IMG/VR virus record: IMGVR_UViG_3300023202_000336
Coordinates: 116,135-180,134 of that record
DNA: 64,000 bases
Source of the DNA: a virus
Direction: 5' to 3' (one strand)
A program made the translations under genes and the position numbers. The notes beneath the pieces were generated by a model. It worked only from the letters and a program-made list of their open reading frames with translations. It had not been told where the DNA came from and searched no databases. Numbering within the stretch: position 1 is the first letter of the stretch; each line of letters opens with the position of its first letter. Positions 2,676 to 18,102 of this stretch are shown piece after piece.

Positions 2676-2724
2676 TATGCCGCAACTTTTATTGCACAAT
2701 TGCGAAAATGCAAGGAGCTTTTCG

Positions 2725-3270: not shown

Positions 3271-3273
3271 GAC
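3243..3273 (+). repeat. Dispersed 31-bp repeat, copy 1 (inside the 3' end of fic)
   Basis: Matches the consensus TATGCTCGCTCAGGAG + CTTCGTATCTGAGAC with one change. It supplies the final codons and TGA stop of the Fic gene. Confidence 0.85.
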
Positions 3274-3773: not shown

Positions 3774-3782
3774 AAATCGAGT

Positions 3783-3855
3783 CGAGCTACCGTTCCTGCA
3801 GAAGTGGTACTATGACCCGTTCACTATGCTCGCTCAGGAGCTCCGTATCTGAGAT
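3783..3855 (+). repeat. Duplicate of the 3' end of fic, with repeat copy 2
   Basis: About 73 bases match 3201-3273 (the last ~70 bases of the Fic gene) with only a few substitutions. The copy starts at CGAGCTACCGTTCC and ends in the dispersed repeat (3825-3854). There is no start codon, so it is a gene fragment. A TATAAT at 3894-3899 lies downstream and could serve as a -10 for the next gene, though no convincing -35 is seen. Confidence 0.85.
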
Positions 3856-3941: not shown

Positions 3942-4631
3942 ATGATAGATGCGATGGTAGCATATTACGGTAGGCAATTTCGAGTACGTAATAAGAACGT
4001 GTATAGATACCTTTCAGGAATGCAAAAGGATTATAACGAGAGAGCTCGAACGAGGTGTAGAGGGTTCGAATACATGCGTTTACGGAATAGAGGGTCAAAT
4101 TACTGTGGGAACCCATTTTGCCCGACGTGTTGGCACCGTAAACAAGAACATCTTATTAGCTTCATCATGGATGCTCGATCAGATTTATTATTTTTGAGAG
4201 TAACTGACGAGGTCCACTGGGAAGATACACTTAACAAAAGATATCTCGATAAACTAAAAAGTAGAAAATATAGACTCATAGCTCAATGTATTTCTTTTGA
4301 TAACCTTATAGGCGTGATCGATGATATCGGGTATAAAATAGCAGGCATATATAGCGCGAGTAGAGAGGTTCACGATGAGGATACACCAGGAGTGTCTTAT
4401 GTACACGAGCAGGCGAATGATCCTTTGTCGGAGGTGATAGGAGCGGTAGAAAAGCTCGAATACGAAGGAAGCGATAAAGAGAGTCTTATACATGATTGGC
4501 AAGATACTATGAAGCACCCGTATAAGTTTCGTAGGCACTCGAGGTTTAACGAGTATATTCGTAGGTTTGAAACGTTTCGTATTGAACGAAGTTGGGCGAA
4601 ACGCGGAATTGTACCCCGAGGAGGACGTTGA
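3942..4631 (+). CDS. Hypothetical protein with a Cys-rich motif, 229 aa
   Basis: ATG start after a purine run (GGGGGGACGTC). The N-terminal half is strongly basic and contains CRGFEYMRLRNRG followed by CGNPFCPTCWHRKQEH, a likely zinc-binding CxxxxCxxC site that recalls zinc motifs of replication or nucleic-acid-binding proteins. The C-terminal half is charged and helical, ending basic. The gene is richer in A+T than its neighbours. Its stop overlaps the ATG of SbcD by one base (TGATG), so the two are translationally coupled and it may act with the nuclease. No family is recognised. Confidence 0.65.
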   Translation: MIDAMVAYYGRQFRVRNKNVYRYLSGMQKDYNERARTRCRGFEYMRLRNRGSNYCGNPFCPTCWHRKQEHLISFIMDARSDLLFLRVTDEVHWEDTLNKRYLDKLKSRKYRLIAQCISFDNLIGVIDDIGYKIAGIYSASREVHDEDTPGVSYVHEQANDPLSEVIGAVEKLEYEGSDKESLIHDWQDTMKHPYKFRRHSRFNEYIRRFETFRIERSWAKRGIVPRGGR

Positions 4632-5725
4632 TGGCTAATCCGGCATTTATAGCTCTCGGAGATCTTCATCTTGATTTCTATATTTGGCGTAAATTCAAGC
4701 AAGTAAAAGGCGATTCGTTTCTAGGATTCACCTCTTTGATAAATAGAGGTATAGCTCTCGGCGTTCCGGTCGTACTCGTAGGCGACATATTCGATACAGT
4801 CGAGCCAGACCCAGCTATTATACGATTTTTTCGAAGAGAGATGGATAGATGCAGGGATAACGACGTTGAAGTATACGCGATTCAAGGGAATCACGATCGA
4901 CGCCCGATACCCTGGTACTCCGCAGTCCACGACTGGCCTATTCATATCGGAGACGGTGAGGAAGTAGATATAAACGGTATCGGATGCGTTGCTTTCGACA
5001 ATATGACGCGCGATAAAATAGAAGACGCTATAATGAGCCTGAGAGACTGCGTGCCGAAGCCAGACGTCCTGTTTCTTCATCAAGCGGTGCGTCAGATGCT
5101 GTCATTCGAAGGGGCGTGGAATTGCGATCTCGATTGGATACCGGAAGGCATCCCGGCCACTATAATGGGTGATATACATAAAGAATGGGAACATAAAATA
5201 CGCGAAGGACAGAAGGCGTATTATACCGGCTCGAGCCATCCGAGAGAAGCGCCGGAGATAGGTTCGAAATCATGTATCGTCGTAAATGACGATCTTTCGG
5301 TTGAGAGACTTCCAATTGATTATAGGCCTATGACGAAACTCTATGTGAGATCTGATAAAGAACTAGAGGATCTGCGATCATGGGTCAACGAGGCTGTCGA
5401 GTCGAATCCGAAACTTCCTCCGTTCGCCTGGGTTGTGGCGTCTCCGGAGAAAGAGAGCGATATACTGGAGTTCAGAGAATCCTTCGAGGACGGCTCAGTT
5501 ATAATCATAACCGAACCTTTCACATTTAAAGATGATATAGAAGATCCAATAGTTGATGATGAGGAATGTTTAAGTATAGAAGCGCTACTTTCAAGATTCT
5601 TCGATCCAGATGAAGAACCAAAGAGTTATTCGTTTGCGGCTGACCTGCTCGGTCAGTCGAAGAGCGTTCTCGACGTAATAGGAGAACGCAGGGACCAATT
5701 CTATCAGGAGACCGAAGGTTCATGA
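4631..5725 (+). CDS. sbcD: SbcD/Mre11-like nuclease subunit (metallophosphoesterase)
   Basis: Calcineurin-type metallophosphoesterase, the nuclease half of an SbcCD (T4 gp46/gp47-like) complex that resects or opens DNA ends. Metal-ligand motifs appear in order: GDLHLD (Asp11, His13), VGDIFD (Asp52), GNHDR (87-91), then LFLHQ and MGDIHKEW with later histidines. The C-terminal third is acidic, as in capping domains. Length (364 aa) is normal for the family. I start at 4631 because GGAGGA lies just upstream and the ATG overlaps the previous stop. Its ATPase partner SbcC is at 8977-11340, separated from it by four ubiquitin-system genes. It overlaps the E2-like gene by 4 bases (ATGA). Confidence 0.9.
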   Translation: MANPAFIALGDLHLDFYIWRKFKQVKGDSFLGFTSLINRGIALGVPVVLVGDIFDTVEPDPAIIRFFRREMDRCRDNDVEVYAIQGNHDRRPIPWYSAVHDWPIHIGDGEEVDINGIGCVAFDNMTRDKIEDAIMSLRDCVPKPDVLFLHQAVRQMLSFEGAWNCDLDWIPEGIPATIMGDIHKEWEHKIREGQKAYYTGSSHPREAPEIGSKSCIVVNDDLSVERLPIDYRPMTKLYVRSDKELEDLRSWVNEAVESNPKLPPFAWVVASPEKESDILEFRESFEDGSVIIITEPFTFKDDIEDPIVDDEECLSIEALLSRFFDPDEEPKSYSFAADLLGQSKSVLDVIGERRDQFYQETEGS

Positions 5726-7254
5726 CGGACACCGCCGAACTGGTATACGTGATAAGAGATTCGCTGAAGAGCGATCTGCTGAGAGAGCTGGAAATAGAGG
5801 TTGAAGAGGACTCGTTGACTTTTCCGGCTACCGACGATGAAGAAGAGTTCACTATCGAATGCTGGCGTTTCCCGAAAGAAGAGGTGAGTAAGTTAATTGA
5901 TTATGGGTACAACTGTACCTCGCTCGCTACTCCTACTAACGAAGACCTTGGGGAAGAGATTCCGGAGGGGCGAAAGATCGAATTCTTGGCTCTGATGAAT
6001 CCGGACAATTCCCCCGCACATCACGATGTAGATCCTCGTGAAAGATTCACGGTCGATATCAATAGCTGGAACAGCCCAGCGCCCGAAAAATTCAAGAGTC
6101 GAATCAAGGAGATATTCGAGGAGAGGCTGATGCCGGTAGTTCGAAAGAACATCGGCATTACGGTCCCTCACGCCGTAAAGGCGTCCACGGTTACTGAGGG
6201 AAACACTTTCATCGTCCATGTATGGTCCTCTCCGGTCAGTGCGCCAGACCATGGATATGTTGTTCCTCCGCAGATGTGGGGAATACCAGTTCCTTGCGTC
6301 GATGGTAGTTCCCTTGGGATATGGGCGGACGGTAATCCAGTTATAACAGAGGAAGGTGATGAAGTCGCTGCTTTCGATGAATATAATCTCTACATCTATT
6401 TCGACGCTGTTGAGACCGGCAGTGAAAGTGAGGTTGCTATTCTCGAAAAGATCGCAGAAAGTGTCGCAACGCAACTTCGTGATGGCCTCGAATACGATCT
6501 CGATAAAGTAAAGACTAGTTATATAAAGCAGTGTGGTAAGCGTGTAGAGATGCAGAAGAAAAATCTTAAGAAGCAGATGACGGATCTCGAAACTAGAGCT
6601 ACAGAGTTGCAGCAGGAGATGGTGCGTACTCTGCGAGAACATAAGGAAGCTCGAGTACGGGTGGAAACGTTCGATAAGCATTCAGATGACATTAACAAGA
6701 TGCTTTCGGAAGAGTTCGACGCGCTTACCGAGATGCCGAAAATCGAGAGGGTGGAGTACCGTGGTAACAGTCTCGCTGTTCATACGAAAACTCTTTTCTG
6801 TACCGACCCGAGGACCGATAAGGTACACGAAATCGGGGCTTTCAAGCTGGTTATCGATGAGCTGAGAGGCGATGTATACTTCTATAACAAAACGAGAAAG
6901 ATAAATGCGTATAAAGCTCAAATGAACGGTCCCCACCTCTTCCCCGACGGGAGAGCGTGTCTCGGGAACATGACGAAGGTGTTTCCGCAGCTCATTTCGA
7001 GTTATGAGTGGAGCGCGGCTATCAACATGGCGTTGAGTTTTATCGAGCACGTAAATGTGGACGATACCGCCGGCGCCCATATCGACATGTGGCCGATAGC
7101 TACTGACCCGAGTAAGGAACGTAGAGAAGCTGTGGAAGAGGTTGCTGAAGCCGCAGAGGTTGTAACAGAAGGGCATGATGTCCCGGTTACAGAAAACACC
7201 GTACCCGCTGCTGCGACGGAAGACGCAGCAGATACCGTAGAAAGAGAGGGATAA
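5722..7254 (+). CDS. E2-like (UBC-fold) protein of a phage ubiquitin-like system
   Basis: E2 enzymes accept a Ubl on a cysteine and pass it to a target. The C-terminal region (about 335-465) ends with PHLFPDGRACLGN, where His405 and Cys413 match the active-site layout of bacterial E2-like proteins (H...CLG in place of eukaryotic HPN...C). The preceding strand pairs (LVIDELRGDVYFYN) fit a UBC/RWD core. Residues 1-250 form an unrecognised domain rich in acidic and aromatic residues. About 265-330 is a charged coiled coil, and the last 40 residues are an Ala/Glu/Val-rich tail. The gene overlaps sbcD by 4 bases and is followed 5 bases later by JAB-1. The E2 call rests on the motif and on gene context; a fold comparison was not possible. 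Confidence 0.72.
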   Translation: MTDTAELVYVIRDSLKSDLLRELEIEVEEDSLTFPATDDEEEFTIECWRFPKEEVSKLIDYGYNCTSLATPTNEDLGEEIPEGRKIEFLALMNPDNSPAHHDVDPRERFTVDINSWNSPAPEKFKSRIKEIFEERLMPVVRKNIGITVPHAVKASTVTEGNTFIVHVWSSPVSAPDHGYVVPPQMWGIPVPCVDGSSLGIWADGNPVITEEGDEVAAFDEYNLYIYFDAVETGSESEVAILEKIAESVATQLRDGLEYDLDKVKTSYIKQCGKRVEMQKKNLKKQMTDLETRATELQQEMVRTLREHKEARVRVETFDKHSDDINKMLSEEFDALTEMPKIERVEYRGNSLAVHTKTLFCTDPRTDKVHEIGAFKLVIDELRGDVYFYNKTRKINAYKAQMNGPHLFPDGRACLGNMTKVFPQLISSYEWSAAINMALSFIEHVNVDDTAGAHIDMWPIATDPSKERREAVEEVAEAAEVVTEGHDVPVTENTVPAAATEDAADTVEREG

Positions 7255-7259
7255 GATAG

Positions 7260-7928
7260 ATGTTTCTCCCCCATAGTTTCAAAACAGAAGTAGGGGGCGT
7301 TCCCGAGATAATCATCTCTCAGCAGGCGTACTACGACATGTGGACCATCGTCGACAAAGTTACGACCGAAGTGGGGTGGATGGGAACAGCTCACCGTAGA
7401 GACGACGGCAATCTTTTCATCGAAGAAATTCTCTTGCTGAAGCAGCAGTGCCACTCGACCACTACCGAGATGTCCCCTGAGGGGTACGCAGATGCTGTTA
7501 CGCGTCTTGCGATGGAGGACGCCGAGAAAGGAATCAATCCGGAGTCGCCAGACTACAGGGCCAACAAACTTTTCTTCTGGGGCCATTCTCACGTAAACAT
7601 GGATACGTCTCCTTCGTCGCAAGACGATGCCCAGATCGAAATATTCAGAGGCGATGGATGTCCGTGGTTTATCCGCGGCATCTTCAACAAGAAGAAGAGA
7701 GCAGAGTTCACTGTATTTTTCTTCGACGCGAATCTGGCGGTCATAGACTGCCCGTGGTCGATAGAGGCTACCGTCGACGATGGTAGAAGAGAATTCTGGG
7801 AGAAGGAAATCAGTGATAAGGTCAGTACTTTCTCGTCGAGCTCGTATTACGGAAGTAACAAGCACAAAGGCAGCAGCTATACCCCTCGTAGGACGGGTGG
7901 TCAGTTCAGTGATCGGTGGAGTAAGTAA
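7260..7928 (+). CDS. JAB/JAMM metalloprotease 1 (predicted Ubl-processing peptidase)
   Basis: JAB proteases cleave after Ubl C termini, both to mature precursors and to strip conjugates. The zinc motif is complete: Glu37 in TTEVGWMG, then HSH (109-111) followed after seven residues by SSQD (Ser119, Asp122), matching HxHx7SxxD. The domain spans about 15-165. The C-terminal 50 residues are Ser/Tyr/Lys-rich and probably flexible. The start is ATG with GAGAGGGATAAG upstream. The stop overlaps the start of the E1-like gene by one base (TAATG), a tightly coupled pair as in other bacterial E1-E2-JAB operons. Confidence 0.88.
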   Translation: MFLPHSFKTEVGGVPEIIISQQAYYDMWTIVDKVTTEVGWMGTAHRRDDGNLFIEEILLLKQQCHSTTTEMSPEGYADAVTRLAMEDAEKGINPESPDYRANKLFFWGHSHVNMDTSPSSQDDAQIEIFRGDGCPWFIRGIFNKKKRAEFTVFFFDANLAVIDCPWSIEATVDDGRREFWEKEISDKVSTFSSSSYYGSNKHKGSSYTPRRTGGQFSDRWSK

Positions 7929-8635
7929 TGAGCGATACCGTGGATACTCTTCGGCATATCAAGGTATTCGACGCCGAGGAGTTCGCGAGCAAGCGGGTCG
8001 ACGTGATAGGGGCCGGAGCTACCGGCTCCCGAATCGCGCTCGCGTTGGCGAAGCTCGGGATCACGAATCTTCACGTGTGGGATTTCGATAAGATAGAGTC
8101 TCATAATATAGCTAATCAGGCTTACGGACTTAAAGATGTCGGTAAGCCGAAAGTACGTGCGTTGGAAGAGCTTATTCACGAGCAGACGGGGATTAGTATC
8201 GCTCCTCACGAAGAGGCTGCTACGAAAGAGTCCGATCTGGGAGCATATGTGTTCCTTCTCACGGATACCATGGCTTCGAGAAAAGAGATTTGGAAAGGTG
8301 CTTTGAAGTACAAAGCCCACGTAGAACTCGTCGTAGAAACGAGGATGGGAATCAGCGAAGGAAGAGTCTATTCCGTAGTTCCGTCAGAACCGGCGGAAGT
8401 TTCATTTTACGAAAAGACGTTCTGCGACGATGACGAAGCAGAGGAGAGCATGTGCGGTGCTCGGACCGTAGTCGGCTCCACCGCTGAGTTGGTGAGCGGC
8501 TACGCTGTGTGGGCTTTTCTCAGGTACTATAAGTATAATCTCGAACGAAAAGAAGAGCGACCAGAGGTAGAAATGCTGTTTTTTGCCAGCCCGGCAATGA
8601 CTATGACGAACTCGCCGAAACCGGTGCTCGTCTAA
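7928..8635 (+). CDS. E1-like ThiF/MoeB-family adenylyltransferase 1
   Basis: E1-like enzymes adenylate the C terminus of a Ubl and can then hold it as a thioester. The Rossmann nucleotide loop is VIGAGATGSR (27-36), followed by WDFDKIESHNIANQ (51-64), whose acidic and Asn/Gln residues are typical of ThiF ATP/Mg binding. Cys176 in SMCGART sits where the catalytic cysteine lies in ThiF-type E1s. There are no CxxC zinc pairs, so it is a minimal 235-aa E1. Poorly conserved with the second E1 at 15957, it probably serves a different Ubl or a different step. It is coupled by overlap to JAB-1. Confidence 0.88.
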   Translation: MSDTVDTLRHIKVFDAEEFASKRVDVIGAGATGSRIALALAKLGITNLHVWDFDKIESHNIANQAYGLKDVGKPKVRALEELIHEQTGISIAPHEEAATKESDLGAYVFLLTDTMASRKEIWKGALKYKAHVELVVETRMGISEGRVYSVVPSEPAEVSFYEKTFCDDDEAEESMCGARTVVGSTAELVSGYAVWAFLRYYKYNLERKEERPEVEMLFFASPAMTMTNSPKPVLV

Positions 8636-8661
8636 CCAACTTCAAAAGGGAAGAACAAACT

Positions 8662-8913
8662 ATGATCGACATTTCCATCGGAGCGCCTCCCCGCTCTCCC
8701 ATGCGCACCGTCACCGTCCCCGACGATGCTTCCGTCGCGGATGCCATCGAAGCGGCTGGGCTCAACGGCCCGGAGTATCGGAACTTCGAGATCCGGGCGG
8801 GCGGCAACCACATCGATCACCCCGAGCGCGAACGCGCCACTCCGGGGATGACGGTGATCCTGGCCCCTCAGGTGAAGGGGAACGAGTTCGAAATTCGCAT
8901 CAAGACACGATAG
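8662..8913 (+). CDS. Single-domain ubiquitin-like (beta-grasp) modifier
   Basis: An 83-aa protein with the rhythm of a ThiS/MoaD/ubiquitin fold: strand ISIGAPP, strand MRTVTVPDDASVADAIEAAGL (first strand pair then helix, about 14-34), then FEIRAGG, and a closing PGMTVILAPQVKG. The core ends at VKG (73-75-type position), with a 10-residue tail NEFEIRIKTR after it. The three-domain Ubl ends NVKGA, so I infer maturation after VKG by a JAB protease. The gene lies just after E1-1 with AAAAGGGAAG before its ATG. Codon use is markedly more G+C-rich than its neighbours, as expected of an abundant protein. The Ubl call is from pattern and context. Confidence 0.72.
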   Translation: MIDISIGAPPRSPMRTVTVPDDASVADAIEAAGLNGPEYRNFEIRAGGNHIDHPERERATPGMTVILAPQVKGNEFEIRIKTR

Positions 8914-8959
8914 ATGGCCAGAAATACCGGGGAGGAATCGTTCTCCCCGGCGTCATCTA
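8911..8959 (+). promoter_or_regulatory. Two-tier hairpin between the Ubl and sbcC genes
   Basis: CCGGGGAG (8927-8934) pairs with CTCCCCGG (8943-8950), and an outer TAGATG (8911-8916) pairs with CATCTA (8954-8959). The outer arm contains the Ubl stop codon. There is no T tract, so it is more likely an RNA-stability or attenuation element, lowering downstream expression and protecting the Ubl message, than a full terminator. Confidence 0.6.
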
Positions 8960-8976
8960 TGAGGAAGTGAGATAGC

Positions 8977-11340
8977 ATGATTACGAGAGTAAAAATTAAG
9001 AACTTCGGCGTTCATAAGTATATGGATATCGAGTTAGAAAAAGGTATAAACGGGATCATTGGTACGAATGGTTCCGGTAAATCAACGATACTCGAAGCTA
9101 TTAGATTCGGATTTACTGGTCAGGTATCTATGTCGGGGAATAAAGACGATAATGTTTCATGGGGCGAAGATCGCGGTAGTGTAGAGATTTGGTTCACGTA
9201 CGGTGACACTGATTATCAGCTGAAACGTACTCTTGGAGCTGGTTCTTCTCAGCGTCTGATCACCCCGGAAGACACTTATCGTCGAAAGACTGAAATCGAG
9301 CAGTATTTGAGAGAGCTTCTCGGCGCGAGTGCTGACGCGCTTTTGAACAATATTTTTCCTCCACAAGGAGATATAGATAAGATACTTTTCGATACGCGTA
9401 CCCAACGTTTGAAAGAGATGCAGCAAACCGTAGGGCTCCAAAGAGCTGCGGAAGCTGAAAAAGCCCTCGGTAACGAGATTAACAGTTATATATTAACGAT
9501 AGGTCTTGACGCACAGATAGAGGCAATCGAAGAAGAATTTGAAAAAGTAGACGAAGAGCTGAAAGATGCCACTCGACATAAAAGTTCAGTAGATGACGAG
9601 ATAGATTGTCTCGAAACCTATAGAGATAAGCTCAACGAGTTCATGATTTCGCAAGAAAATAGGGTCATATTGGATGATACCAAAAAGGAAATAGACGGCC
9701 TCGAACGAGAGCTCTACAAATCTAATCATGAGCGTCTTGAAATATCCAGTCATATAGAGGCAATGGCGTATCTTCGTGACTCGAAGAAACCGCTCGTAGA
9801 GGATGCTCAGGAGAAACTTCTCGACATCAGGTCGAGAGAGAAACAGATCAAAACGGTCGAATCTTTGAAAGAGAAACTCGTAAAGATAGATAAAGCGATA
9901 GTGGATCTCACAGAGTCGCGAGATGACCTTCTCGATATTATAGAGTCTAAGGAAGATCTCTTACGAAAGAAGCGTTCCAAGCTCGATCAATTAGTAGACA
10001 TCGAGAAGGAAAAGATCCCATACCCGGAGACAGAAGAGGAAAAAGAATATAAAGAAGAATATCAGAACATCGCAGCTGAGCTCGATGATCTGACGAAAAA
10101 GGAGCTGTTTTCGGAAGAGCTGGACGATCTTCAGAAGAAGTTAGAGGGTAGGAATCTCATGCTCGAGTCTATCGACGAGGGTAGCTGCTACGCATGCGGA
10201 GCTCCTGTAGACGACGTTAAGAGGGCCTTTGTTGAGAATGAAATAGAGGAGCTAGAAGGGTCGATTTCGGAGGTTTCAAAGGCTCTTCGCGCAGAACGCG
10301 ATGAGAAGGTACGCGAGTTGACCGAGTATCTCTCTGGTCTCGAAAAGAAAATAGAGTATTACATTAAGACGGCCCGCGAGGTAATATCCTCGAGAAGAAA
10401 GAAAATCGAAAAAGAAGTAGAGGAGCTCGAGAATGACTTGAAGATGCTCAGGTCCGAGAAAGAAACGCTCGGCGAGCTTCGTGCAAAGAAAACAGCAGTA
10501 GAAGAGCAGATATCCAATAACGAAGTAGTAGAGTCTCATGACGTGGATATCGACGAGCTTAAGAGCACGGTCGATAAATACGATAAGGTTCTTACGAAAT
10601 TGAGTGATCTCGAGAGCGAACTTAAGTTAAAGGAACAGAAAATAGAGAATATAGAATCCTCGTTACAGCGAGCTAATGAAAGGAAAGAAAAGATAGAAAG
10701 TAATACCGTCAGTTTTAGTGATGAGGAAATAGCTGAGGCGAAGGAGAAAGTGGACGTTCTTGCTGAGAGACTAAATTTTCGTAAGAGCCTCATAGAGGCC
10801 CTCACTGGACTGGAAGTGAAATATAAGGAATACTCTTCTTCGCTTAAGAGCCTTCATGAGAAATATGAGAGGGAAAAGAAAGATCAAGAATGGGTGAAAT
10901 TCTGTAAAAAAGTAAGAGACGTGTTTCATGTAAGTGCACTTCCGTCCCTCGCCATGAGAGAATACGCGACGGTACTGAACAAGCGTGTCGACTACTATCT
11001 GTCTACGTGGGAGGCTCATTTTACTATGGAGCTCGACGAAGAGCTGTCATTTATAGCTAAATTCGACGATAGAATACATCCGGCGAAGAGGTTGTCGGGT
11101 GGACAAAGGATAATTGCGAGTACAAGTTTTAGACTCGCGATGGGTGATACGTTCGCCAAACGCGTCGGATTGCTAGTTTTAGATGAGCCATCAGTCTATC
11201 TAGACAAAGATAACATCATACATCTACAGAGACTTTTACTGAAGTTGAAGGAGCTGGCCGGCGCGACCGGTAAACAGATCCTCTTGGTTACACACGAAGA
11301 GACATTAAGTGGTTTCTTCGATAACATCATCAGACTGTAA
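8977..11340 (+). CDS. sbcC: SbcC/Rad50-like ATPase of the SbcCD nuclease
   Basis: SMC-like ATPase that with SbcD processes DNA ends and recombination intermediates. Features in order: Walker A GTNGSGKST (29-37); a long coiled coil broken by a zinc hook CYAC (Cys404, Cys407); a second coiled coil; signature LSGGQ (706-710); Walker B LLVLDEPS; and switch region LLVTHEE near the C terminus. At 787 aa it is shorter than bacterial SbcC and closer to T4 gp46-type proteins. ATG start with GAGGAAGTGAG upstream. It sits between the one-domain and three-domain Ubl genes, away from sbcD, which physically ties the repair nuclease to the Ubl system. Confidence 0.93.
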   Translation: MITRVKIKNFGVHKYMDIELEKGINGIIGTNGSGKSTILEAIRFGFTGQVSMSGNKDDNVSWGEDRGSVEIWFTYGDTDYQLKRTLGAGSSQRLITPEDTYRRKTEIEQYLRELLGASADALLNNIFPPQGDIDKILFDTRTQRLKEMQQTVGLQRAAEAEKALGNEINSYILTIGLDAQIEAIEEEFEKVDEELKDATRHKSSVDDEIDCLETYRDKLNEFMISQENRVILDDTKKEIDGLERELYKSNHERLEISSHIEAMAYLRDSKKPLVEDAQEKLLDIRSREKQIKTVESLKEKLVKIDKAIVDLTESRDDLLDIIESKEDLLRKKRSKLDQLVDIEKEKIPYPETEEEKEYKEEYQNIAAELDDLTKKELFSEELDDLQKKLEGRNLMLESIDEGSCYACGAPVDDVKRAFVENEIEELEGSISEVSKALRAERDEKVRELTEYLSGLEKKIEYYIKTAREVISSRRKKIEKEVEELENDLKMLRSEKETLGELRAKKTAVEEQISNNEVVESHDVDIDELKSTVDKYDKVLTKLSDLESELKLKEQKIENIESSLQRANERKEKIESNTVSFSDEEIAEAKEKVDVLAERLNFRKSLIEALTGLEVKYKEYSSSLKSLHEKYEREKKDQEWVKFCKKVRDVFHVSALPSLAMREYATVLNKRVDYYLSTWEAHFTMELDEELSFIAKFDDRIHPAKRLSGGQRIIASTSFRLAMGDTFAKRVGLLVLDEPSVYLDKDNIIHLQRLLLKLKELAGATGKQILLVTHEETLSGFFDNIIRL

Positions 11341-11354
11341 AAAAGGGTCACATA

Positions 11355-12092
11355 ATGCCCAGAATCACTTTCATCAACGACGACGGCGCCGGATTCGGAT
11401 CCCCGCGCGAGGTCCCCTACGGCACCACCATGGCCGGTCTCTTCCGCGAGATCTGGCCGACGGGTAATCCGGAGCACTTCCGGTTTACTCTCAACGGTCG
11501 CTCCGCTACCGGTGACGATCGTCTCTCGGATGGCGATCGTGTCGCCATGATCGCCGCTACCGACGAGGCGCGTTACCCGGGTTACGGCCAGCGCCTCGGC
11601 GGTACCGTCGGTGGTTATGGTGCGGTCGACCGCGATGGTGGCGACCGCGTCGCTTTCATCGCTCCGCACGGCACCGGTTTCGCCGATTGGTACTACATCC
11701 GTCCTGGTACCACTCTCGAGCAGTTCGTTTATGAGCGTCTCGGTCGTCATTTCGACGTTCGCAATCACGTCATCAGCGTCGATGGCGTTCAGGGTCCCCC
11801 GGCCTCGCAGGTTCTCCGGGCGAACAACCATATCTCGGTCACTCCGCGCAACATCAAGGCTGCGTCGGATGTCGAGATCACCCTCATCAAGGGTTCCGGT
11901 GCCGGTTATGCGGCTCGTCGGCGTATCCCCCAGGGGACCACGCTCGGCGAGCTGTTTCACCGGGAGACCGAGGGTGACGATCCGGAGCGGACTCACATCA
12001 TCAAGCTCAACGGTGAGACCGCCACCCGCGATCGGGTTCTCGAGAACGGCGACTCGGTGACGATCTCTCCGAAGAACGTCAAAGGCGCCTGA
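11355..12092 (+). CDS. Three-domain ubiquitin-like (poly-Ubl) protein
   Basis: A 245-aa protein made of three beta-grasp repeats, about 1-70, 97-168 and 171-243. Each has an N-terminal strand pair ending in a (P/R)xGTT turn (YGTTMAGLF, PGTTLEQFV, QGTTLGELF), a helix, and a closing strand (DRVAMIAA, HISVTPRNIKA, SVTISPKNVKGA). Repeat 1 is followed by GQRLGG (78-83), reminiscent of the ubiquitin C-terminal tail, and a Gly-rich linker. The protein ends VKGA, so trimming of one residue would expose Gly. Codon use is strongly G+C-biased, suggesting high expression, and a strong terminator follows. Poly-Ubl genes beside E1/E2/JAB genes are known from bacterial comparative genomics. The identity is inferred from repeats and context. 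Confidence 0.78.
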   Translation: MPRITFINDDGAGFGSPREVPYGTTMAGLFREIWPTGNPEHFRFTLNGRSATGDDRLSDGDRVAMIAATDEARYPGYGQRLGGTVGGYGAVDRDGGDRVAFIAPHGTGFADWYYIRPGTTLEQFVYERLGRHFDVRNHVISVDGVQGPPASQVLRANNHISVTPRNIKAASDVEITLIKGSGAGYAARRRIPQGTTLGELFHRETEGDDPERTHIIKLNGETATRDRVLENGDSVTISPKNVKGA

Positions 12093-12099
12093 GCAGTTA

Positions 12100-12140
12100 G
12101 AGGGGAGGCAGCATTCGTCTGCCTCCCCTCGTTTTTGTTT
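12100..12140 (+). terminator. Strong rho-independent terminator after the poly-Ubl gene
   Basis: GAGGGGAGGCAG (12100-12111) pairs perfectly with CTGCCTCCCCTC (12119-12130) around a 7-base loop, followed by GTTTTTGTTT. It divides the Ubl operon into two transcription units. Confidence 0.93.
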
Positions 12141-12194
12141 ACCCCATCTCACCACGATCGAGAGATCGAGAGATCGAAAACCATAAGGAGCGTT

Positions 12195-14267
12195 ATGGCC
12201 TCAATCGAGGATACTCTGCAAGGAACGTTCGTTCCTACTCCTCATCAGATCCAGAAGTACAAGTTCGTAGGTGATGATCTCTCCATATACCCGTGCGAAG
12301 GGCTCGAAGAGCGTAGGTTCCTAAGGCTTTTGATGCTCGCTGCAAGATTCTATAGTATTCTCTGTGAGAACGAAGGTAAGACGGCTCTCAATAGAAACAG
12401 GCAGTTGATACAGTCAGAGATTGAAGGATTCTCGCGATCGATCAATAATCTCCGAAGATCAGTTGGAGAGTTAAATCAAAAGAGTTCCGTGAAATTCATG
12501 AAGGAAGTTCAGAAGACTTCTGGATACGTGGAAGCTATGGAAAAGACGATAGGAGAAATAGTAGACCGTGGAGTAGAGAAGTCGTCTCTTTTCGATTTTA
12601 TGACGATCTATAAAGACTTCTACCATATGAGTGTCGGTGACGTTTACGAAGGGGTTTACCCCATTTTCTACGAAGATATCAAAAAAGACAAAAAGTTGGC
12701 AGTTATAGGTAAACCAGAGGCGGAAGTTTTTAATGACAAGATCGTAATACTTACAAAGCCGGCATCTATTAAGCACAATAAGAGAATTATTGACTTCGGA
12801 AACTATTTTATCACGTACTCTTTCCAGGTGTTGAACGATGCTTTACGGTCTGGAAACTCGGCTGCAATTCATAGCGGTTTGCGCCTCTCATCGCCGTCTC
12901 CACGTTACCCAAAAGACGATGACGGGGATAATATACACCCTCACATATCCGGTAACGGTATGTGCACAGGAGAGGCAGGTTACCGTATCTTGAGCTTTCT
13001 CCAGCAGGGCGTACTTTCAGGGGTTTTCCAACTCGTAAACAGCATCCTGAATACACTCGGATCAGGTCCCTACAGAGCGATCAGCGCCTGGGATCCTCGC
13101 CCGTCGTGTGCGGGGTGTGGCGAGATTATCGGTGAAGATGACGAAAGGGTCAATTGTTCTTCGAATGGTGCAGCGCTTCACAAGTCGTGCGCATATGAAG
13201 ACGAGGATGGGAACTTTCACGAACATCGCTTCGTCAAGACTTGTACCTTCTGTTTCAACGAGGGTGTTTTCGATGACAGGACTACGCGTGGAGGCAATGT
13301 CGGATGTCCTCTGTGCATTGAGGAGCTTTCGCGAGTCGAAAATCTCGTCAACGAAGGAAAGTTCCCTTGCCCGAACTGTAATCACGTTCATGAAGGCGAA
13401 GACGCGTTCGATCATAAGATAGAGCTCGGAGAGAAGGACTACGCGTGTACCAGATGTGTGAGCTGGGTCAGAGAGCCCAACGAGGACGGCGTCGGCACCT
13501 GTGAAGTAGAAGGAATAGGTCGCGTCACTACAAGTCGCATGATAACCCAGAGGAGTCGCCGCTCTTTTCCGCGTATTCCGAATATCGTCGTCTGCAGCTG
13601 CGGATCGAGAGTAGCCGAAGAAAATATCAGAAGAGACGATTTCGCAATGTCCAACTGTTGCCAGGTATGCGACCCCGATAATCTCGGAATGTCTCAGTCG
13701 TTCCTTGCGCAGGTGCCTATCATGGAAGCGTGGCTGTGGAACTTTTACGGAACGCATATAGGTGAGATGACGACGCAGTATTGCCGCCTCTATAGTTTCG
13801 TCGGCGAAGACGTTTCTGCCGAACGGGCTGCGAGCGTGGTCAAGAGATTGCGATGCTGGGAGATTAACCTGAGTAGAACCATGTGCTACGTCGATCGCCA
13901 TACCTCTCTGAGAGAGAAGGCCATATTCTGGGAAACCGTTTTAGCCGATACCGGCTTCATCATCCTGACCGCAGACGAGGAAAGCATCCGTATCCATGAC
14001 GAAATCCAAAGATTCCGAACAGAAGACGCGACGCGCGCCGGTAACGCGCCGGAAGGCGTCCTCGAAAGAGAAAGAGAAAGGATCCAGGAAACCCTCCGGC
14101 GGCTCAGAGACTTCTTCTCCGGAAGAAGAGCCGCAAGAGATGAAGAAGGAAGAGAAGAAGAAGGAAGAGAAGAAGACGGAAGAGAAAGAACCGACGAAGA
14201 TCGAGAAGAAATCCGAGCAGGCGAAGCAGGAGTCGTCGAGGCCGTCGATACCGGTGACGGCGCCTGA
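12195..14267 (+). CDS. Large Cys-rich protein with RING/treble-clef-like zinc region (candidate E3-like)
   Basis: 690 aa from the ATG at 12195 (AAGGAG just upstream). Residues 1-300 are helical and unrecognised. From 305 there is a dense zinc region: C305xxC308, C321, H329xxC332 (ALHKSC), C350xxC353, C371PLC374, then C392PNC395 and ACTRC. A second cluster lies around VVCSCG and CCQVC (about 474-495). Two interleaved CxxC...HxxC...CxxC sites are the layout of RING and related treble-clef domains, and RING proteins occur in some prokaryotic ubiquitin operons, so an E3-like or Ubl-binding role is inferred. The C-terminal 90 residues are Arg/Glu-rich and share 272 bases with the next gene in another frame. 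A structural zinc protein without ligase function is equally possible. Confidence 0.6.
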   Translation: MASIEDTLQGTFVPTPHQIQKYKFVGDDLSIYPCEGLEERRFLRLLMLAARFYSILCENEGKTALNRNRQLIQSEIEGFSRSINNLRRSVGELNQKSSVKFMKEVQKTSGYVEAMEKTIGEIVDRGVEKSSLFDFMTIYKDFYHMSVGDVYEGVYPIFYEDIKKDKKLAVIGKPEAEVFNDKIVILTKPASIKHNKRIIDFGNYFITYSFQVLNDALRSGNSAAIHSGLRLSSPSPRYPKDDDGDNIHPHISGNGMCTGEAGYRILSFLQQGVLSGVFQLVNSILNTLGSGPYRAISAWDPRPSCAGCGEIIGEDDERVNCSSNGAALHKSCAYEDEDGNFHEHRFVKTCTFCFNEGVFDDRTTRGGNVGCPLCIEELSRVENLVNEGKFPCPNCNHVHEGEDAFDHKIELGEKDYACTRCVSWVREPNEDGVGTCEVEGIGRVTTSRMITQRSRRSFPRIPNIVVCSCGSRVAEENIRRDDFAMSNCCQVCDPDNLGMSQSFLAQVPIMEAWLWNFYGTHIGEMTTQYCRLYSFVGEDVSAERAASVVKRLRCWEINLSRTMCYVDRHTSLREKAIFWETVLADTGFIILTADEESIRIHDEIQRFRTEDATRAGNAPEGVLERERERIQETLRRLRDFFSGRRAARDEEGREEEGREEDGRERTDEDREEIRAGEAGVVEAVDTGDGA

Positions 14268-15960
14268 AGAGAAGAGAAAAGAGGCAGAGGATCTTCCAGC
14301 CTCTCCCGTGAGGCCTATACTCGAGTATTCCGAGGGAGTCGACGCCCTGTATTTCACGCCGTATGCTTGGGCGAAGCTCCAGTTCATGTGTCACTCCGTC
14401 GATACCGAAATCGGCGGAATGGCACTTACGGCAGCAGACAATCCGTTTCTCATCGAGGATATAGGTATCGTCAAGCAGAAGGCGAGTGCAGCTTTCGTTG
14501 ATTTCGATGACGAGGCGTTGAACGATTTCATGACCGAGCAGTTCGTAAAGCACGATCGTCAGCCGATCAACTGCATGAGGATCTGGATACATACGCATCC
14601 GCATGGATGCACGAAGCCTTCGGGACAGGACGAAAATACGTTCAGAGACGCTTTCGGAAGCGCAGACTGGGCAGTGATGTTCATTCTTGCGAAATCAGGA
14701 GAGGTCTACGCGCGTATGCGGGCTGATACTGCGCACGGCGTTTCGATCAACAAGCATCTCGACGTAGATATAGACTGGTCCAAACCTTTCGAGGGTTCGG
14801 ACCACGACAGCTGGCTCGAAGAGATCCGTGAGAAGGTCACTATCAGAACGTATTCGACTCCAGCAAAAGTAACGAGGTTCCCTGGTACGAGAAGCCGCGG
14901 CGTAAACGCGCTGATAAGCGATAAGAGATCGAGCTCGAACTCCACGAAGTCTTACATCGATGATGATTATATTTTAGATAATGAGTGGTACGGCGGTGGA
15001 TACGGTTACGGAGACGGTTACGGCGGTCAGAGAAGGTATTCCCGCGATAGTACGACGCACGGGAGGAAGGTGGAGATTCGCCTGTATCCTGAACACGTCT
15101 GCTACGATATGCCGAACCAGCTTTATATCAATCTGCTGAAGATGCCCCGTAAGAATTCGTTCTTCATTCATTCGGATAAGAAGGTTCTCGAGAAACTCGG
15201 GGCGGTGATGGTTCCGTACAAGAAGCACGAGGGCAAAGAGACCGCTAAGTTCCTCTGCTATATCAAGAGTCATGGCAAGAAGTATACAGTCGATTCGAGA
15301 GCACTCACTATGATGGTCGACCACCCCGTTCCCGTCCTCAAAGCTATTTTGGAAGAGCGTCACGAAGCCGAACAGAAGCTTCTGAAGATAGCGGATGGCA
15401 GGAACGAGAACATGTACGGTTTTACCGATATCTTCGGTAAACGGTGTCATGTAATCGTTCCTTGGTTCTGCCTGAACAGGAGGCTGATCTGGCTTTCGGA
15501 GGACGAGTATGTGACGATGGAAGAGATAAACGACGGTATTACTTCGCTTGAAGAGTCACTCGATAAAGAGGAAGATGATACGAAGGAGCTTACGACAGTG
15601 GGCAGCGAGGACGATAAGGGTGACGAACAGTTTTTGGATAAGGAAATCGAAGATTTGGAGACCGGGTTCTTCTTGGAAGAGAAGGAGCTGGCGGACGGTA
15701 AGCGTAAGATAAATCTCAGTTTCGATCACTTCTTCTCGGAAGCGTGGGATAACGTAATAGCGTACCTTAAGGCAGCGAACTATTTCGGAGCGAGTGAGAA
15801 GGACATCGAGACGAGACTCTTCAAGTACGAAATGGAAGCCAAAGCAGATGTAGAGAGAGAAGCTTACGAGGCGGTGAATAAGCTGGTGAGGTTGAAGGGT
15901 TACGACGTAGAAGCTCTCAAAGCCGTGATGATCAGTGACCAGAAGGAGGAAGAGGAATGA
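13996..15960 (+). CDS. JAB/JAMM metalloprotease 2, multidomain
   Basis: A second predicted Ubl peptidase, 654 aa. Residues 1-105 are a Lys/Glu-rich low-complexity extension. The JAB domain spans about 112-255, with Glu138 (DTEIGGM), HTH (199-201) and SGQD (Ser209, Asp212), matching HxHx7SxxD. A Gly/Tyr-rich linker (GGYGYGDGYGG, about 333-345) leads to an unrecognised 300-residue C-terminal domain with acidic and coiled segments. The start at 13996 has GAGGAAAG 13 bases upstream and overlaps the previous gene by 272 bases. An internal ATG at 14140 would shorten the overlap and remove half of the low-complexity region. The stop overlaps the second E1 gene by 4 bases (ATGA). Confidence 0.83.
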   Translation: MTKSKDSEQKTRRAPVTRRKASSKEKEKGSRKPSGGSETSSPEEEPQEMKKEEKKKEEKKTEEKEPTKIEKKSEQAKQESSRPSIPVTAPEEKRKEAEDLPASPVRPILEYSEGVDALYFTPYAWAKLQFMCHSVDTEIGGMALTAADNPFLIEDIGIVKQKASAAFVDFDDEALNDFMTEQFVKHDRQPINCMRIWIHTHPHGCTKPSGQDENTFRDAFGSADWAVMFILAKSGEVYARMRADTAHGVSINKHLDVDIDWSKPFEGSDHDSWLEEIREKVTIRTYSTPAKVTRFPGTRSRGVNALISDKRSSSNSTKSYIDDDYILDNEWYGGGYGYGDGYGGQRRYSRDSTTHGRKVEIRLYPEHVCYDMPNQLYINLLKMPRKNSFFIHSDKKVLEKLGAVMVPYKKHEGKETAKFLCYIKSHGKKYTVDSRALTMMVDHPVPVLKAILEERHEAEQKLLKIADGRNENMYGFTDIFGKRCHVIVPWFCLNRRLIWLSEDEYVTMEEINDGITSLEESLDKEEDDTKELTTVGSEDDKGDEQFLDKEIEDLETGFFLEEKELADGKRKINLSFDHFFSEAWDNVIAYLKAANYFGASEKDIETRLFKYEMEAKADVEREAYEAVNKLVRLKGYDVEALKAVMISDQKEEEE

Positions 15961-16634
15961 GCGAAGAGCAGACCACTGTAGAAGAGCGCTATAGCCGACA
16001 GGCATCTCTGATACCTCCCGATAAAATCGCTACTTTGACGGTATGCGTGATCGGTGTCGGCGCTATCGGGAGGCAAGCTGCACTTCAGCTTGCCGCCTCA
16101 GGTGTCGGACGTCTGAAACTGATAGATCACGACGATATCGAAAGGGTGAATCTCGGTCCTCAGGGCTATTACGAGTCGGACATCGGGAAGAAGAAAGTCG
16201 AAGCGACAGCTGACGTGGCGCGATCGAACAACCCGGAGATCAGCATCGAGGCGGTAGATCGACGTTACAATCCTGTAGACGGCGATTGTGATGCGGTCTT
16301 CATGTGCGTCGATAGCATCGAGACTCGAAGGTTCATCTATGAATCTTTGATGGATCGGAAGCCGTTCCTTGTCGACGGCAGGATGGCCGCTGAGACGCTG
16401 AGAATCGTGACCGCCTACGATGATTCGACTTACGAGGACTACGAAGAGACACTCTTTTCAGATGATGAAGCTTTCGAGGGAGAGTGTACTGCAAGAAGCA
16501 CTATCTATTCGGCGAACATCGCCGCAGGACTGATGGTTGCGCAGTTCGCAAAGTGGGTTAGAGAGATGGAGATGATTATCAAGCCTGACTTCATTCTTAA
16601 TCTTCTGAGTGGAGAGCTATTCGAAACGGAGTAA
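15957..16634 (+). CDS. E1-like ThiF/MoeB-family adenylyltransferase 2
   Basis: Second E1-like enzyme, 225 aa. Rossmann loop VIGVGAIGRQ (31-40), then IDHDDIERVNLGPQ (56-69), the ATP/Mg-binding segment. The catalytic-cysteine motif ECTARSTIY has Cys177 in the CTARST context that is common in ThiF/HesA-type E1s. This is closer to the family consensus than E1-1, where the motif is MCGART. It is coupled to JAB-2 by an ATGA overlap, so each E1 in this region has its own JAB partner. It lies directly upstream of the helicase gene, continuing the operon. Confidence 0.9.
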   Translation: MSEEQTTVEERYSRQASLIPPDKIATLTVCVIGVGAIGRQAALQLAASGVGRLKLIDHDDIERVNLGPQGYYESDIGKKKVEATADVARSNNPEISIEAVDRRYNPVDGDCDAVFMCVDSIETRRFIYESLMDRKPFLVDGRMAAETLRIVTAYDDSTYEDYEETLFSDDEAFEGECTARSTIYSANIAAGLMVAQFAKWVREMEMIIKPDFILNLLSGELFETE

Positions 16635-16635
16635 A

Positions 16636-18102
16636 ATGGCGTATCTCGCGTATATCGGTAGAGCTTTGGCGCTATACCCAGCGAAACTGGGTGAGCTTTT
16701 CGAAGAGCACTGTACGGTAGAAAAAGTAGTTAGCGAAGAGGTATGGAAAACCAGTAGGTCGACCGGTCGACGGTATCGTAAAGTCGAGCGGATAGGCAAA
16801 AAGGTAGAGATGTACTGGTACGCCGAAGACGATGGAAAAGAAGTTTTCTGTGCCTATTCAGGGTACGGTGCTCATATCGAAAAGACGCTAAAGCAACGAA
16901 AGATTCCATACACCACCGAGAACCGTGTCGATCACGGTCTTCCGAAACCAAATCTTGAAGCGATCAGACATATAGAATGGCGGCCACGGCAAAAAGAAGT
17001 CGTGGCCGCCATTCTGGCTTACAACGGGGGTGCTATCGATTGCCCGACGGCGTTCGGTAAAACCTTTATAGTTAAGCAGATCGCAAAAGTTTATCCGGAG
17101 TCCCCTATTATCGTAACTGTTCCGTCCGTGGATATCGCAAATGACATCTACGATGGATTACGTTTCGATATACCGGGGGTGGGAATGGTCGGCGACGGAA
17201 AGAATAAACCAGATAGGGTTACAGTTGCGGTAAGCCAGTCGTTACACAAGTGCGATAGGCACGCGAGTTTGGTTCTTGTAGACGAGTGTCATGCGATTCT
17301 CACGACGAATTTCATAAAGAAGCTTCATAGATTCTATCGGGCAAAGTTCTTCGGATTTACCGCTTCTCCGGAAGGTAGAAGCGACAAGGCAGACAGGTTT
17401 TTAGAGGCTTTATTCGGGGAGGTATTAGTCCGTGTTTCCTATCAAGAGTGCGTAGAGAGCGGAAACGTTGCTCCTATTAAAGTACACGCTTACACCGTAG
17501 AAGACGGGCCTGACGTTTCAGCAATAGAGAATCATACGAAGGCAGATCGCCTCGGTATATGGACGAACCGTACAAGAAACGAATTCATTGCGCGTGTAGT
17601 AAGAAAAGTAGAAAAGGATGTTGGCGACAACGAACAGATTCTGATTATGGTCGATAAGACCGAGCACGCCTATGCTCTTGGGCAGTATCTCGACGACTAC
17701 ACCGTTGTTTCAGCCGAACCCGATCCGAGACGAGTTGCCCAAATGCGACGAAACGGGTCGATGTTACGGGCGCAAAAGATATGTACTAAGAAGTCGCGGG
17801 GATATTATAAACGTATGTTCGAGCTCGGGAGACTCAAAAAGGTTATCGCAACGAAGGTGTGGAAACAGGGAGTCGATTTTCAGGACCTTTCGGTTCTCGT
17901 ACGCGCTGATGCCGTTTCAACTCCGATACAGTCTACACAGATCCCGGGAAGACTTAGTAGACTCGGACGAGAAAAAGAGAAAGATTACGGCATACTTATA
18001 GATTTCTTCGATAAGTTTAGTGGGAATTTGTACGCGCGTTCACTAAATAGATTCAAGGTGTATCGCAGCAAAGGGTGGAGTATCGAGAACAAGACATGTT
18101 AA
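16636..18102 (+). CDS. SF2 DNA helicase (UvsW/RadD-like)
   Basis: ATP-dependent helicase, 488 aa. Motif I is PTAFGKT (Lys142), the DEAH-type box reads DECH (216-219), motif III-like FGFTASPEG follows, and motif VI is GRLSRLGREKEKDYG near the C terminus. The N-terminal 110 residues, with a basic stretch, are unlike the core and resemble the DNA-binding extension of UvsW-type helicases that remodel forks and D-loops. The start is the ATG two bases after the E1-2 stop, with GGAG upstream. The coding sequence contains a perfect 15-bp inverted repeat at 16974-17015. Its stop overlaps the next gene. Confidence 0.87.
   Translation: MAYLAYIGRALALYPAKLGELFEEHCTVEKVVSEEVWKTSRSTGRRYRKVERIGKKVEMYWYAEDDGKEVFCAYSGYGAHIEKTLKQRKIPYTTENRVDHGLPKPNLEAIRHIEWRPRQKEVVAAILAYNGGAIDCPTAFGKTFIVKQIAKVYPESPIIVTVPSVDIANDIYDGLRFDIPGVGMVGDGKNKPDRVTVAVSQSLHKCDRHASLVLVDECHAILTTNFIKKLHRFYRAKFFGFTASPEGRSDKADRFLEALFGEVLVRVSYQECVESGNVAPIKVHAYTVEDGPDVSAIENHTKADRLGIWTNRTRNEFIARVVRKVEKDVGDNEQILIMVDKTEHAYALGQYLDDYTVVSAEPDPRRVAQMRRNGSMLRAQKICTKKSRGYYKRMFELGRLKKVIATKVWKQGVDFQDLSVLVRADAVSTPIQSTQIPGRLSRLGREKEKDYGILIDFFDKFSGNLYARSLNRFKVYRSKGWSIENKTC
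16974..17015 (+). repeat. Perfect 15-bp inverted repeat inside the helicase gene
   Basis: AGAATGGCGGCCACG (16974-16988) is the exact reverse complement of 17001-17015, with a 12-base A/G-rich loop between. As RNA this is a very stable hairpin in the open reading frame between the N-terminal domain and motif I. Confidence 0.85.

Follow-up and report, generated by a model that had tools for sequence, protein, structure and literature searches.

Bacterial operons encoding E1-like, E2-like, JAB and ubiquitin-like (Ubl) proteins are known (types 6a to 6e of Iyer, Burroughs and Aravind 2006, PMC1779556), and the phage case in the available text of that survey is a Ubl and a JAB protein of tail assembly. 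Bacterial Ubl conjugation has so far been studied largely as an anti-phage weapon; here, we describe phages that carry the machinery themselves, in many contigs. The analysis concerns a 64,000-base stretch of viral DNA (the window; bases 116135 to 180134 of the 180,134-base IMG/VR record IMGVR_UViG_3300023202_000336, which may be a fragment), for which an original prediction, made from the letters alone, had claimed a complete, doubled E1/E2/JAB/Ubl set in a phage replication operon, wrapped round the nuclease SbcCD. Profile matches and gene layout bore this out, and we consider it likely, judging from sequence and predicted structure, that the window encodes two separate working Ubl conjugation systems in one early replication and repair gene cluster.

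Two four-part cassettes lie on either side of sbcC

Profiles for E1, JAB, Ubl and E2 were built from the cassettes of other phages, with no window sequence included. The first three were run on 370 six-frame window open reading frames (ORFs) of at least 45 aa, and the E2 profile, comprising nine cores, on window ORFs of at least 60 aa. Matches were obtained for two E1 genes (at 7928, E 2e-60, and 15957, 6e-53; next best 0.46), two JAB genes (7260, 2.7e-31, and 13996, 2.3e-29; next best 0.32), two Ubl genes (11355, 1.2e-21, in three domains, and 8662, 1.5e-10; next best 0.2) and two E2 genes (5722, 9.5e-20, and the ORF from 12135, 7.6e-10; next best 2.1). Each of the four profiles matched exactly two window ORFs, and the window therefore holds two four-part cassettes.

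Cassette A (E2-JAB-E1-Ubl) sits between sbcD and sbcC and comprises E2-A (5722 to 7254), JAB-A (7260 to 7928), E1-A (7928 to 8635) and Ubl-A (8662 to 8913). Cassette B (three-domain Ubl-E2-JAB-E1) sits between sbcC and the gene of a UvsW-like helicase and comprises Ubl-B (11355 to 12092), E2-B (12195 to 14267), JAB-B (13996 to 15960, start uncertain) and E1-B (15957 to 16634). All are on the plus strand, in a single cluster of 11 genes from 4631 to about 18100 with the order sbcD, E2-A, JAB-A, E1-A, Ubl-A, sbcC, Ubl-B, E2-B, JAB-B, E1-B, helicase. Neighbouring genes share a few bases at 5722/5725, 7928 and 15957/15960 (the last an ATGA overlap of JAB-B and E1-B), as expected of a coupled operon. 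The E2-like protein, two JAB proteases, two E1-like enzymes and the one- and three-domain Ubls predicted between sbcD and the helicase were all recovered, at or near where they had been placed, as were the residues named for them, i.e., His405 and Cys413 of E2-A, Cys176 of E1-A, Cys177 of E1-B and a complete HxHx7SxxD motif in each JAB.

The two E1s, of 235 (E1-A) and 225 aa (E1-B), have one ThiF domain each, with ThiF (PF00899) above cut-off for both (4.7e-21 and 5.5e-30). The full JAB motifs are HSHVNMDTSPSSQD in JAB-A (7584-7625) and HTHPHGCTKPSGQD in JAB-B (14590-14631). JAB-B has a K/E-rich N-terminus and a long C-terminal extension. Its start is uncertain: the predicted one, 13996, falls 272 bases within the preceding gene, and 14140 is another ATG.

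The cassette recurs in phage contigs

Of 50,697 phage records, 88 contained relatives of E1-B (E ≤1e-3) and 44 relatives of E1-A (E ≤0.01). Crass-like, Flavobacterium, Xanthomonas and Erwinia phages are among them, and there the relatives are mostly annotated as thiamine biosynthesis or hypothetical proteins. In the same records, no tblastn match at E ≤1 was obtained for E2-A, E2-B or JAB-B (from 14266), and scans of viral contigs with E2-A, E1-B, the helicase and SbcC as single proteins found only a near-identical sibling contig. This second contig has the same arrangement, with 99.94-99.96% identity across 21 kb, and the two assemblies may stem from related samples.

To gather relatives, short DNA patterns were derived from motifs conserved in E1 and in E2. 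In IMG/VR viral contigs, the E1 pattern occurred in 13 stretches, 12 of which encode such an E1, and the E2 pattern in 41, of which 39 were new. All four parts were present in 27 of these 39, ordered Ubl-E2-JAB-E1 in 21 cases; four more had E2, JAB and E1, and eight lacked at least one part, several of them being truncated where the stretch ends. The 39 stretches are not independent (L047/L071, L055/L075 and L040/L048/L062 look near-duplicate). At the level of whole records, an E1 was found in 36 of 38 (excluding L056, which belongs to an earlier record). The four-part cassette recurs among phages rather than being special to this one.

In a collection of cellular genomes (257 billion bases), this E2 pattern occurred in 35 stretches, of which 22 encoded E2 and E1 (all four parts in 12 of them), three E2 and JAB, two E2 alone and eight no cassette. 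The 22 are contigs of metagenome-assembled genomes (MAGs), many from the candidate phyla radiation and others from Myxococcales, Deltaproteobacteria, Planctomycetes, Zixibacteria, unnamed bacteria and two archaea. A Ubl/E2/JAB/E1 set was seen in the archaeal MAG contigs L098 (Lokiarchaeota) and L085 (Thermoplasmata); these sets could be proviral or cellular.

Equivalents of Asp57, Asp59, Asn65, Lys80, Asp119, Arg124, Arg142 and Cys177 were present in all 47 distinct phage E1s, and the third Gly of GxGxxG in 45 of them; H.H-x(7-9)-[ST]..D was present in 47 of the 47 JABs kept. These counts include both window copies and leave out the distant E1/JAB relatives L009 and L010, short or identical proteins, and repeats of the same regions (L031, L032, L033, L035 and L037). 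In the 12 pattern finds, the E1 Asn, Lys and Asp-x-Gly motif was partly selected for, and the Cys was not. Since the short DNA patterns select for the motif, independent evidence is provided by the linked genes and the E1 Cys, and not by conservation of the E2 motif or of part of the E1 motif.

Both cassettes encode an E2 core

E2-A consists of an N-terminal region, a coiled coil and a UBC-like core at about residues 330-461, whose active-site stretch GPHLFPDGRACLGN contains His405 and Cys413. In E2-B, a UBC-like core precedes a Cys-rich part, and the core stretch HPHISGNGMCTG (12936-12971) has an HPN-type motif (HPH) ahead of the Cys. This gene product had been predicted as a large Cys-rich, RING-like protein. 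It is indeed Cys-rich (24 Cys in 690 aa), but it is not RING-like only; it holds an E2 core, and the E2 is therefore doubled too. The Cys-rich part (13107 to 13670) reads CAGC...CTFC...CPLC...CPNC...NCCQVC and may be a RING-like or zinc-finger domain, which is weakly supported, the best Pfam match being Prok-RING_1 at 16.7 bits (E 0.0073) against a cut-off of 29.1.

An AlphaFold2 model of the E2-A core, made with an 11-row alignment, had a mean predicted local distance difference test (pLDDT) score of 76.5, with most of the core at 86-91. In a Foldseek search of the model against the Protein Data Bank (PDB), the first nine rows were E2 enzymes or E2 complexes (E 0.028-0.11), none reaching 0.001, and the 50 matches listed by VIA-align were all E2 entries (Z 7.5-8.5), where a Z near 8 may reflect a common fold arrangement. 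The UBC fold predicted at 5722 is thereby moderately supported.

The 11-row E2 profile gave 13 matches among PDB sequences, ten of them E2s (best E 0.22). With a 40-row alignment, two rows of which are from the window, 123 matches were obtained at E ≤10 (best 5e-5); among the best 60 of the 123, 58 were named E2 or UBC and two L3A2-1, and the phage HPH..CLG was aligned over the eukaryotic HPN..CL. E2-B is assigned to the E2 family by its match to the profile built without window sequence. The Pfam family UQ_con matched three of the 40 cores (best 1.5e-4), none of the Pfam Prok-E2 families matched any of the 40 at E ≤0.1, and NCBIfam gave three single matches with unrelated names. This phage E2 type, with its eukaryote-like HPx...C active site, is thus without a Pfam or NCBIfam name beyond weak matches.

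Ubiquitin-like proteins and their tails

Ubl-A has one beta-grasp domain and Ubl-B three divergent ones. The AlphaFold2 model of Ubl-A (pLDDT 89.1) has the order beta-beta-alpha-beta-beta-beta, and its fold matches included SAMP1 (E 2.5e-4), MoaD, TtuB and ubiquitin (VIA Z up to 10.0), along with non-Ubl beta-grasps such as the domain of transcobalamin. The beta-grasp fold predicted at 8662 is well supported by this model and its matches. At 11355, sequence alone points to it, through ThiS (PF02597, 4.9e-10) and the Ubl profile.

Ubl-A has the tail QVKGN (8869-8883) followed by nine residues, EFEIRIKTR, and Ubl-B ends in NVKGA. A strict tail pattern, [VIM]x[GAS][GAN]x(0-4), was found in 32 of 43 Ubls compared to 64 of 3625 other ORFs, a comparison that is partly circular, the profile covering the tail. 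A loose pattern was also present in 642 of the 3625, and only the strict pattern is therefore informative. Four of the 43 Ubls missed the loose pattern (L061, L013, the second ORF of L050 and window Ubl-A), and the long L017 Ubl ORF met it through a chance ending. Many phage Ubls run one to four residues beyond the Gly (EGGE, QGGR, KGGR, KGN, KGA), which is the form of a putative precursor that a JAB would trim. Polyubiquitin-like genes were also found, with three (L063:10543-11175) and four (L017:4991-6142) near-identical Ubl repeats ending in KQIKGN or GSVKGN.

Doubling and SbcCD interleaving in one lineage among those examined

Two full E1s were found only in the window and its sibling contig. 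Among 48 other E1-bearing records (some near-duplicates, many fragments), one, G041, matched the E1 model a second time (8.1e-19, model positions 20-125), in a 219-aa open frame about 13 kb away. A 178-kb record, IMGVR_UViG_3300025005_000002 (L031/L022/L056), has at least three E2-like genes and one E1 match; two of its E2s are in tandem in the cassette and another lies elsewhere.

In a 15-row E1 tree (18 E1s minus the long rows L009, L010 and L017), E1-A grouped with L022 (93/89) and E1-B with L024 (89/90). In the 18-row tree, E1-A again grouped with L022 (97/94) and E1-B fell in another group of uncertain branching. With the 15 rows, a tree constrained to E1-A and E1-B as sisters was rejected by the approximately unbiased (AU) test (p-AU 0.011), and a recent tandem duplication of set A to set B is disfavoured accordingly. 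As the window E1s are not sisters, cassettes A and B are best read as coming from different phage lineages that were brought together.

Among the flanks of other cassettes examined, no relatives were found of SbcC, SbcD, the helicase, polymerase, primase, single-stranded DNA-binding (SSB)-like and RecA-like proteins or two more window proteins (phmmer E 1e-5, blastp E 1e-3; best blastp E 0.015). Within these flanks, SbcCD interleaving is therefore no general trait. Among the records and flanks examined, full doubling and SbcCD interleaving occurred in this lineage alone.

The flanks were compared in eight records, with 82 near proteins (greedy ORFs of at least 170 aa, cassette members removed by profile) and a far set of 68 of 81 proteins, the other 13, from about 1000 aa upward, being left out. 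In the near flanks, the Pfam families listed (25 of 49) included RecA (3), RNA ligase (4), AAA (4), UvrD, ResIII, uracil-DNA glycosylase (UDG) and NRDD; the far set had baseplate and sheath. Descriptively, the cassettes lie in early or nucleic-acid regions.

Other genes of the cluster and its surroundings

The gene sbcD (4631 to 5725), encoding a Mre11-type nuclease subunit, was matched by Metallophos (1.6e-7) and, below the curated cut-off, by Mre11_Sulfo (5.7e-18); gaggagg precedes its start, and its stop overlaps the E2-A start (ATGA). The Rad50-type ATPase gene sbcC (8977 to 11340) was matched by PHROG 77 (1.2e-40) and by Rad50 models down to 5.9e-40, the latter below cut-off. The UvsW-like helicase (16609 to 18102) had ResIII (8.9e-9) and Helicase_C (3.1e-5) matches for 16639-18099. 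All three are on the plus strand. Downstream of the helicase lie a KaiC/DnaB-like ATPase gene and, from sequence reading, primase-, family A polymerase- and RecA-like ORFs.

On the other side, a terminase large subunit gene (window 957-2798, minus strand) borders the plus-strand cluster. A Fic-domain ORF (window 2677-3270, plus strand; PF02661 1.4e-5, motif HPFTDGNGRSGR), possibly a further protein-modifying enzyme, lies 1.4 kb upstream of the cluster. Its 3' end is overlapped by copy 1 of a 79-base direct repeat (window 3194-3272 and 3776-3854, 94% identical), whose 33-base core occurred in only these two places within the window at up to six substitutions. Farther away in the window, we noted a TnpB-like gene at 27432-28520 (Cas12f1-like_TNB 6.9e-18) and another at 45553-45975 that by eye resembles a C-terminal fragment, at 33783-35358 a bacterial-type RuvB (RuvB_N 5.4e-38) followed by an ORF that by eye resembles RuvA, a BCS1-like AAA ATPase at 41660-43036 (BCS1_N 1e-14) and a second AAA ATPase at 43623-44513.

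Proposed mechanism and alternative explanations

From the genes, their motifs, homology, folds, order and recurrence, we infer a pathway of processing, thioester formation and conjugation, with its targets and timing, that would run as follows. The JAB would trim the Ubl behind the conserved [VI]-K-G-[NA] tail, removing about ten residues from Ubl-A and one from Ubl-B. The single-domain E1 would adenylate the exposed Gly and take the Ubl onto Cys176 or Cys177, from where it would pass to the E2 Cys (Cys413 of E2-A, or the HPH...C cysteine of E2-B) and be handed to a lysine of the target; the JAB may later strip it off again. Sets A and B would run in parallel with different parts, and in set B the zinc-finger part fused to the E2 may serve as a built-in E3 or target binder. 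The sets would be expressed along with SbcCD, helicase and polymerase genes, which points to phage or host proteins involved in DNA replication, repair or nucleic-acid defence as the targets.

Several findings pull the other way. Prok-JAB of Pfam was below cut-off in both window JABs (0.2 and 0.0016), as was Prok-RING_1 in E2-B. E2-A has GPH in place of HPH, the first His being absent; it is unnamed by any Pfam or NCBIfam family and had no Foldseek match at or below 0.001, and its VIA scores allow for a shared fold arrangement. That the E2 motif does not vary across the 40-row alignment follows, for 38 of the rows, from how they were selected. Ubl-B domain 1 is without a KG tail, and Ubl-A, extending nine residues past QVKGN, fails the end-of-protein tail pattern. 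SLT (3), radical SAM (3) and transposase (2) families occur in the near flanks as well, and a single DNA polymerase A and a single RecA turned up in the far set; the flank comparison is descriptive rather than a formal test.

It is conceivable, if rather unlikely, that the genes serve counter-defence, with the phage Ubl, E2 or JAB acting as a decoy for, or stripping, host Ubl immunity (Cap2/Cap3 of the cyclic oligonucleotide-based antiphage signaling system [CBASS], Bil or Bub), and with E1 and E2 retained to attach phage Ubl to the immune enzymes of the host. The window E1s match the PADLOC E1-E2 models (9.2e-16 and 1.4e-16), JAB-B matches the PADLOC JAB model (5.3e-6), and early genes would be a fitting place for such a function. 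Phage proteins are Ubl-tagged by bacteria, according to work cited in the available text of PMC12660748. A full conjugation set, however, exceeds what a stripper needs, the E2 type and single-domain E1 are unlike Bil as described in the available text of PMC11354881, and replication and repair genes are among the neighbours of other cassettes.

Returning to conjugation of the phage's own Ubls, a more specific version, to which we give a low probability, is that phages evolved a ubiquitin-type control of DNA repair of their own, in which two orthogonal Ubl codes with separate E1-E2 pairs mark the phage SbcCD (Mre11-Rad50) complex or its partners, switching it between replication, recombination and packaging stages. 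The doubled set around SbcCD offers a concrete first target candidate, and if such marking were true, it would be a viral parallel to eukaryotic ubiquitin/SUMO control of Mre11-Rad50, relying on an E2 family whose HPx...C active site is eukaryote-like.

That the Ubls are instead degradation tags, with AAA ATPases unfolding conjugates that are then destroyed, seems improbable. The two AAA ATPases at 41660 (BCS1-like) and 43623 would be candidates, and AAA proteins make up four of the 82 in the flanks of other cassettes; both window genes are, however, 25 kb distant from the cassettes, the flank genes of other phages may form one related group, and ClpP and proteasome families were not found in the record (controls positive in 12/14 and 10/14 genomes).

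A sulfur carrier pathway, in which E1 and Ubl pass sulfur like ThiF/ThiS, MoeB/MoaD or TtuB and the JAB frees the product as in CysO/Mec+, is highly doubtful. It would account for the single-domain, ThiF-type E1, for the matches of Ubl-B to ThiS and, below cut-off, to a MoaD model (1.7e-4), and for SAMP1, MoaD and TtuB being within the first six fold matches of Ubl-A, but not for E2 cores with an intact Cys in both sets. Moreover, the 180,134-base record gave no match to rhodanese (PF00581), Aminotran_5 (PF00266), ATP_bind_3 (PF01171) or MoaE (PF02391) (controls positive in 13/14, 14/14, 14/14 and 11/14 genomes, respectively), although the record may be a fragment and a host could supply the enzymes. 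Finally, a decayed or borrowed gene block without function, which the low identity to relatives might suggest (E2-A ≤29% to any compared row), is very hard to reconcile with overlapping genes, all four active sites intact twice over, and the recurrence of the set across many phage contigs, where the E1 Cys and the JAB motif are preserved in each of the 47 copies kept.

Comparison with known systems

The window set resembles the operons of PMC1779556 in bringing E1-like, E2-like, JAB and Ubl proteins together, with tandem Ubls and a JAB beside the E1, and one operon type there has a possible treble-clef zinc protein, which may be a further likeness. In the available text of that survey, the operons are bacterial, plasmid-borne or on integrative and conjugative elements, and the E1 is often fused to a JAB or E2, whereas the window has four separate genes. 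The type 6d E2 is described there as being without the upstream His, while the window E2s have an upstream HPH (GPH in E2-A), like the eukaryotic HPN. The window set is also phage-borne and doubled, unlike the operons covered in that text.

The Bil system (BilABCD) likewise has Ubl, E1, E2 and JAB in one operon, with a JAB that trims the Ubl (PMC11354881). In the available description, BilB, the E2, has a CEHH motif with a His behind the Cys, whereas the window E2s have CLGNM or CTGEA at the Cys and P-H before it; BilD, the E1, combines inactive and active adenylation domains with a Cys domain, compared to one ThiF domain in 225-235 aa here; and BilA has two Ubl domains, compared to one in Ubl-A and three in Ubl-B. 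With both E1 domain make-up and E2 motif differing from this description, Bil membership was rejected.

The E1 core resembles CBASS Cap2/Cap3 through its matches to the PADLOC E1-E2 models given above, which we take to stem from CBASS, and a BubCD protein (PDB 9ea4) matches E1-B (E 1.1e-4). In Cap2, E1 and E2 are fused. The window E1 and E2 are separate genes with their own Ubl and no fusion, and Cap2 membership was rejected. A PRTRC cassette was also rejected, PRTRC_ThiF scoring 28.3 and 29.5 bits where its cut-off is 144.75; models of PRTRC proteins A, B and C had no match among the ten cluster proteins scanned.

Related E1-JAB-Ubl-(E2-like) genes occur in crAss-like phages and in the Flavobacterium Fpv and Xanthomonas PhiXhv phages. 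Their E1 homologs (about 23-34% identity among the rows listed) share gene blocks with primase, UDG, topoisomerase or ligase. They differ in that each record has a single E1 match, whose annotation is thiamine biosynthesis, E1 enzyme family or hypothetical protein. The PhiXhv-15 Ubl ends in SGG, and no JAB was found within the 16.5 kb examined of that phage. The E2 profile did not pick up the E2 of crAss and Flavobacterium phages, which is visible only as a loose HxH..C[LIT]G motif.

The Ub-E1-E2-RING cluster of Asgard archaea and Caldiarchaeum has, in the available text of PMC5654768, separate eukaryote-like E1, E2 and RING genes, and separate E1 and E2 genes are a likeness to the window set. 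That cluster is cellular, whereas the window set is phage-borne. The archaeal E2 is presumably much closer to the eukaryotic E2 in sequence.

The occurrence of single cassettes in many other phages suggests that viruses of bacteria tag proteins during infection. If the cassettes are functional, phages would modify proteins during replication, and prokaryotic Ubl roles outside defence become testable in cultured single-set phages. The set had been put forward as a candidate for an undescribed system. No account of a phage E1-E2-JAB-Ubl set was found in the open PMC literature, with preprints and most subscription papers lying outside it, where a printed account may exist. Since E1/E2/JAB/Ubl operons are known in bacteria, and the four-part module recurs in phages, candidates for novelty are confined to the phage family, its type of E2, the doubled set and the interleaving with SbcCD. 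The kind of operon is itself known in bacteria; new here would be a phage-borne set, an E2 with a eukaryote-like HPx...C site, its doubling, and its interleaving with SbcCD.

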